The notes under the pieces are model-generated. The model ran no database searches. It had not been told where the DNA came from and saw nothing but the letters and a program-made list of their open reading frames with translations. A stretch of DNA of 32,445 nucleotides from Bacillota bacterium (GTDB lineage: Bacteria > Bacillota > Desulfitobacteriia > Desulfitobacteriales > JAJXUE01): contig JAJZPO010000031.1 in the NCBI GenBank assembly GCA_021811155.1, positions 1 to 32,445 of the forward strand, given 5' to 3'. The position numbers and the translations under genes are program-made. Positions 36 to 23,783 of this stretch are shown here, one piece after another. How positions within the stretch are numbered: position 1 is the first letter of the stretch; each line of letters opens with the position of its first letter.

Positions 36-152
<117 letters not shown>

Positions 153-156
153 AAGG

Positions 157-193
157 AAGTCCAACATCTTAAGTGGTGTTGGACTTCTTTTTT
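157..193 (+). terminator. Intrinsic terminator of the rRNA operon
   Basis: A perfect 10-bp stem (157-166 with 177-186) with a 10-nt loop is followed by a T-run at 188-193, immediately after the 5S 3' end. Confidence 0.85.
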
Positions 194-197
194 GGGT

Positions 198-218
198 GCC
201 TGCGCCTTAAGTATCATT
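198..218 (+). other. Inverted partial copy of 5S rRNA (anti-5S segment)
   Basis: All 21 bases are complementary to bases 105-125 of the upstream 5S gene (helix IV-V region) if two G:U pairs are allowed: 105/218 and 115/208. The other 19 are Watson-Crick pairs. It starts just after the T-run of the 5S terminator. It could be debris from recombination between rRNA operons, or an RNA element able to pair with 5S rRNA in readthrough transcripts or in trans. The sequence does not decide between these. Confidence 0.7.
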
Positions 219-266
219 GCGTATGTGAGGATTGCTTCAGTTGGGGTCCCCAGCAAGTGCTTGACA

Positions 267-445
267 TGCTTCAGGGCCGCGACGGACCGGGCAAACCCAT
301 AAGATGATTCGGGGCTAGCCCGGTCCTAGTCCAGAGGGGTTAGGACTGGGCAAAGGTTGGCCTAACCCCGTGGGGAAGATAGTTGGACCGCAGGGTCCCG
401 TGAAAATAGCGGGGGCCCCTTTGGGGAGGTGTCTTGCCAGGTAAG
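267..445 (+). ncRNA. Structured GC-rich tract, possible ncRNA or decayed second 5S rRNA
   Basis: No plausible protein is encoded here. Strong helices are visible: GGACCGGGC (284-292) with GCCCGGTCC (317-325), and GGGGTTAGG (336-344) with CCTAACCCC (361-369). A GGACC-GCAG-GGTCC hairpin lies at 385-398. The 3' part resembles the 3' half of 5S rRNA: the 385-398 hairpin matches 5S helix IV in place and loop (GCAG) with different paired bases, and the 14 bases at 434-447 are identical to 144-157 at and beyond the 5S end. An 11-base match to 5S (CTTCAGGGCCG) is at 269-279. The canonical 5S loop A-C core is absent, so a working 5S is unlikely. It could be a 5S pseudogene or a derived small RNA; the terminator at 446-476 would end it. 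No promoter is evident, so readthrough from rRNA would be needed. Confidence 0.4.
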
Positions 446-476
446 GACCTGACTCATAAATGAGTCGGGTCTTTTT
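446..476 (+). terminator. Intrinsic terminator after the 5S-like tract
   Basis: An 11-bp stem (446-456 with 461-471, one G:T pair) with loop TAAA is followed by five T at 472-476. It begins directly after the 5S-like 3' end, as the first terminator does after the real 5S. Confidence 0.85.
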
Positions 477-15790: not shown

Positions 15791-16056
15791 TAAGTTTAAG
15801 ATTTTCTAACTGCAATGAACGGGAAGTTAGACAGAGGTAACCCTGACAGAGAAGGCTGCCGGCGGCTGAAAGCAGCTTAGGGTCAAACTGTCAAAGTGCG
15901 CCCGGAAGCAGGCCTGCTGAACTTGGAGTAAGCAGGCCCGGTTGCCGACGTTAACGGCTGCTCCTTTTGGAGTGTTGAGCGGAGTCCCCCAGGGACTCAA
16001 GCAGAGTGGAACCGCGGCTCCCTTCGTCTCTGTCGAGAGGAAGGGAGTTATTTTAT
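15791..16056 (+). promoter_or_regulatory. T-box riboswitch leader, cysteine type
   Basis: The leader of cysE-cysS carries the T-box consensus AAGCAGAGTGGAACCGCGG at 15999-16017. The tRNA-end binding bulge reads TGGA, which would pair with a UCCA 3' end; tRNA-Cys is known for U at the discriminator position, so this fits Cys. A TGC triplet at 15897-15899 is the best specifier candidate, although I could not draw stem I with certainty. GCTGAAAG at 15864-15871 is a usual stem I element. The competing terminator is CTCCCTT (16018-16024) with AAGGGAG (16041-16047), then a T-rich tail. Uncharged tRNA-Cys should permit readthrough. Confidence 0.9.
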
Positions 16057-23625: not shown

Positions 23626-23754
23626 CTAAATATCCCGGTACTAACTGTAGACAGCAGGTGTCCGTTATGGACTTAATTAAGGCCTGCCGAGGTTGGGGTT
23701 AATGCACGTGATGGGCATTCTTGACCTCTGCTGTCTGCAGGGGTCTAAATTTTT
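23626..23754 (+). promoter_or_regulatory. L10 ribosomal protein leader with attenuator
   Basis: The leader contains the conserved GTAGACAGCAGGTG (23647-23660) and GGCCTGCCGAGGT (23691-23703, approximate) segments of the Firmicute L10 leader, the binding site of the L10-(L12)4 complex. It ends in an attenuator hairpin, GACCTCTG (23723-23730) with CAGGGGTC (23738-23745), followed by AAATTTTT. Excess L10/L12 should favour termination before rplJ. Confidence 0.85.
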
Positions 23755-23783
23755 GTACAGAGGTTTGCAAGGGAGGTGGACAA

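Follow-up and report, generated by a model that had tools for sequence, protein, structure and literature searches.

The 5S rRNA gene and the tract behind it

The window analysed in this study is the whole contig of 32,445 nucleotides (JAJZPO010000031.1), which belongs to a fragmented draft assembly and begins just upstream of a 5S rRNA gene. No other complete 5S was present in the assembly. Behind this true 5S and its terminator lies a tract that was resolved into a mosaic of 5S pieces and inserts, with a terminator of its own at the end (Table 1). An ordinary T-box leader (15806-16034) and an ordinary ribosomal protein L10 leader (23627-23760) were also observed in the window.

Table 1. Features of the 5S rRNA gene and of the 5S-derived tract, in window coordinates
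Feature	Position	Strand	Basis
True 5S rRNA gene	36..152	+	Rfam RF00001, 99.3 bits
Intrinsic terminator of the 5S / rRNA operon, gaagtccaacatctt aagt ggtgttggacttctttttt	156..193	+	directly visible in the sequence
Inverted 5S fragment, left arm of relic 1	198..217	-	reverse complement of 5S 106-125, 19/20 identical
Remaining left part of relic 1	222..268	+	98% shared with contig C34 over 151-269
Copy of the 5S helix II 3' strand	269..279	+	cttcagggccg, identical to 5S 95-105
Structured insertion in 5S loop A, ~95-96 nt	280..375	+	homology to a dispersed repeat's core
5S helix IV (GGACC-GCAG-GGUCC) and loop E remnant	377..408	+	helix IV region at 377-398; 22 bases shared with the relic of G001; like functional 5S of G005
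Second small G+C-rich hairpin insertion, ~20 nt, loop E region	~409..429	+	alignment
5S 3' end and spacer	434..447	+	14 bases identical to 144-157
Terminator of the relic	443..476	+	14-bp stem (443-474), T tail

The predicted fold of positions 200-476 was far stronger than that of dinucleotide shuffles (z -4.3, 0/200), in agreement with a preliminary description that had reported a strongly structured tract after the true 5S. Its GCAG-loop hairpin with paired bases (GGACC-GCAG-GGTCC, 385-398), its 14 bases matching the 5S end and spacer (ttgccaggtaagga) and its separate terminator were all recovered, and the derivation of the tract from 5S was right. The 5S core loop is absent, as had been stated, since loop A is taken up by an insertion of ~95 nt that has no relation to 5S. 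This insertion had been overlooked, together with its dozens of relatives in the genome, the inverted arm and the copy of helix II.

The 5S 3' end is retained in the tract. The 5' half (helix I 5' strand, helix II 5' strand and helix III) is gone, and is partly replaced by the inverted fragment, which aligned to 5S with a local score of 18.0 (shuffle maximum 14.0) and recurs in contigs C34 and C146 of the same genome. Within the helix IV/loop E part, 22 bases (agatagttggaccgcagggtcc) are identical in a relic of the sister genome G001. A search of positions 150-660 against Rfam returned no family at threshold and only chance-level matches, and the RF00001 5S model gave no match even at E<=10. 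The assignment as 5S-like thus depends on the individual pieces and on the bridging relic in G001.

Both inserts of the tract, in loop A and in loop E, fall in the same regions as the insertion sites listed for expanded bacterial 5S, namely 66-68, 68-70 and 96-98 (Stepanov & Fox, PMC7812874). This coincidence would fit an expanded functional 5S in which an expansion segment in loop A is either excised or taken into ribosomes. Such a function is hardly credible here: the missing 5' half refutes it for this copy, which only a trans-assembled molecule could rescue, RF00001 does not match, and a normal 5S adjoins.

Arrays of 5S relics and terminators

Contig C34 carries an array in which a 5S 3' end is followed by a terminator, a first relic, a terminator, a second relic with the same insert as the window, and a terminator. 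The first relic is composed of the inverted arm, a hairpin and the 5S 3' half, and its left part is also present on C146. Over 151-269 the window tract aligned at 98% with the left part of relic 1, and over 276-478 at 80% with relic 2, as though a deletion had fused the two. As the stretch 151-231 was found at three places in the genome and the contig starts close to the 5S, the relic parts in the window may also have been wrongly joined in the assembly. On C34 and C146 (L028:1-28 and L024), the non-5S stretch gggcatgcaagtcctattcacggcaggg stands in place of 5S before aaaagtaggtcgttgccagg, so these operon ends carry either a further relic or an expanded 5S that is truncated where the contig stops.

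In the sister genome G001, the array runs from a 5S through a terminator to a relic that lacks the insert and is followed by a further terminator, and the pairing between the left and right arms of this relic is imperfect. 5S-terminator-relic arrays with other hairpin inserts were found in G005 and G015, two relatives within the taxonomic order; the latter is D. dichloroeliminans LMG P-21439, as shown by agreement with the coordinates published for its expanded 5S (PMC7812874). The tract probably belongs to a tandem array of such units, each made of a 5S or a 5S relic and a terminator, which would rearrange by recombination between repeats. Recombination between tandem 5S-terminator units most likely generated the relics in this way.

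Helix IV and expression of the tract

In the preliminary description, the changed but still paired bases of helix IV had been taken to indicate selection for a new small RNA. However, functional 5S genes in G005 (eight places), G011 and G015 have GGACC-GCAG-GGUCC as their normal helix IV, and the relic of the sister species G001 carries it too. The changed pairs are therefore most simply read as an inherited 5S allele, and in these comparisons helix IV looks like an allele of functional 5S that offers no evidence of selection on a new RNA. Within the 5S part of the tract the reported covariation did not hold; genuine covariation was measured among the copies of a dispersed repeat, and in the tract it concerns the loop A insert (276-375).

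The strong fold, the preserved hairpins, the tract's own terminator and the paired helix IV can be reconciled with a functional small RNA of 5S origin that is made as a separate transcript or by read-through, is then processed and works outside the ribosome. Such an RNA is nevertheless very unlikely. A strong terminator stands in front of the tract, and a sigma-70-type scan of 194-480 on the + strand detected no promoter. Helix IV is most simply explained by inheritance, the genome's two copies differ by large indels in their 5S-derived part, and the two arms of the G001 relic do not pair perfectly. Judged from its place behind a terminator and from the absence of a promoter match, the relic is most likely not made as RNA, and its role would be at most that of a spacer and back-up terminator.

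The loop A insert and the core of a dispersed repeat

Elsewhere in the genome, positions 276-348 of the window had approximately 30 matches of 77-86% (82% over 73 bp, E about 5e-13). These matched sites form the middle of a repeat of ~200 bp. A covariance model (R2) was built from 14 dispersed cores, with the 5S-embedded copies left out. It matched the window at 274-375 (76.9 bits, E 5e-18) and C34 at 315-416 (81.7 bits, E 2.9e-19). The core is therefore found in two settings, inside a short repeat and inside 5S loop A. No family was found in Rfam for the insert, at threshold, at E<=10 on the tract or at E<=1 on full repeat copies.

When 17 cores were aligned, including the two embedded in 5S, 97.2% of the cells in paired positions were paired, and compensatory changes on both sides were observed in 7/27 pairs (shuffle mean 2.0, with 0/500 reaching 7; slid structures gave 0-1). 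In this alignment (A1), the both-side changes of helix 4 came mostly from the two 5S copies, and helix 2 varies among the dispersed copies too. The covariation might reflect selection on the hairpins of the repeat itself, acting on RNA or on single-stranded DNA during movement.

Distribution and site of the repeat

The repeat is present in ~45 copies or fragments in its own genome, where the core model gave 46 matches, many of them cut by contig ends. A short form of ~98 bp has two hairpins and lacks the core, which is contained in a long form of ~200 bp (L012, L013, L014 and other copies). The core-less short form was also found in several copies in G001, in at least four in G000 and in a diverged state in G002. 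Among 74 genomes of the order, the core model matched 46 times in the own genome, twice in G001 and once in G073; this last match is a fragment at a contig end and may be mis-binned. Under strict filters, the same model gave no match in the 397 genomes besides the own genome among 398 of the phylum. The exact core pattern was found among genome contigs only in the sister MAG DBS2-4.bin25, and was not found in viral contigs; phage records searched with the tract and plasmid records searched with the repeat gave no match. Outside a single genus, sampled by two genomes, the core of the repeat is thus almost absent.

A strict test for a hairpin plus T tract directly upstream was applied to the 34 copies with a readable left flank. 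An intrinsic terminator was detected right ahead of 27/34 of these copies, compared with 104/3000 random positions (3.5%), and most of the seven failing copies showed a hairpin with a T tract by eye. The orientation is fixed in the terminator-associated copies, with the T tract first and then the repeat. At its own end the repeat has a GC-rich hairpin and then TTTCTT, and at L071 a second copy stands directly behind a short one.

A separate sequence of ~105 bp was observed next to six copies of the repeat (L142-L147, on contigs C82, C6, C111, C125, C147 and C33 of the own genome). It is apparently the end of another mobile element. In both short and long copies, its junction with the repeat lies at one and the same base close to the left end, pointing to a second element with the repeat as its target.

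A Y1 transposase (PF01797) was considered as the mover and rejected: the genome holds one complete and one partial copy, with no repeat-like ends near the complete one. A resemblance to the hammerhead was considered by eye and dropped. No autonomous parent of the repeat was found, and the repeat is apparently non-autonomous.

Origin of the tract and of its insert

The tract, which lies at the distal operon end, is probably a non-transcribed 5S pseudogene whose loop A was colonised by a structured mobile repeat module. The structured core, as part of the non-autonomous repeat, would have entered loop A of a relic, and the insert was then most likely copied between operons by homologous recombination.

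The insert may have arisen first as a 5S expansion segment and have moved later into the dispersed repeat, an order of events that would be compatible with a pseudogene. Among all copies of the core, the two in 5S diverge most (about 80% to the dispersed copies), and core-less repeats occur in G001, G002 and G000; both points speak for this order. The core is unlike 5S, to which it has a local score of 8.0, no better than shuffles, and an origin within 5S is possible but doubtful.

It was also considered that the ~95-nt core might be a structured RNA module that moves on its own. It would then have entered two RNA contexts that are unrelated to each other, 5S loop A and the two-hairpin repeat behind terminators, lengthening a helix of the host in both cases, with the fold kept by compensatory changes. 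This is speculative and on balance improbable. If true, movement would be guided by RNA or by hairpins, unlike that of described bacterial repeats.

Comparison with known systems

In Peptococcaceae, Stepanov & Fox (2021) described 5S remnants that bear insertions, stand in tandem at rRNA operon ends and are each preceded by a terminator; these were inferred to be likely untranscribed pseudogenes. Like these remnants, the window tract follows a normal 5S at the distal operon end, behind a terminator and in multiple copies, lacks a terminal part and carries large paired insertions at the same sites. It differs from them in that its left arm is an inverted 5S fragment and its loop A insert is a member of a dispersed repeat family. 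Relics of this kind are thus already described in related bacteria, and the new part is the homology of the loop A insert to the dispersed repeat. The origin of 5S insertions was left largely open by Stepanov & Fox; the presence of the same structured module in a repeat family of the genome provides a possible source for at least one of them. The analysis also brought to light a repeat family whose placement, right after intrinsic terminators, is unusually strict, and corrected the inference of selection from helix IV.

The prokaryotic 5S expansion segments, such as that of the 244-nt 5S of D. dichloroeliminans, are also self-folding inserts near loop A and helix IV/loop E. Unlike the tract, these molecules retain the complete 5S core. 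The insert model gave no match to the expanded 5S of D. dichloroeliminans (L152).

Group IIC introns insert directly after terminator hairpins, and the repeat shares this site with them. The resemblance was dropped on inspection, as the left end of the repeat lacks the 5' GUGYG, no domain V could be recognised and the length does not allow for a reverse transcriptase. Like REP, ERIC, BOX, RUP and MITEs, the repeat is short, hairpin-rich, dispersed, intergenic, built of nested modules and too short to encode a transposase. It differs from all of these in having no Rfam match and in being strictly placed and oriented directly 3' of intrinsic terminators.
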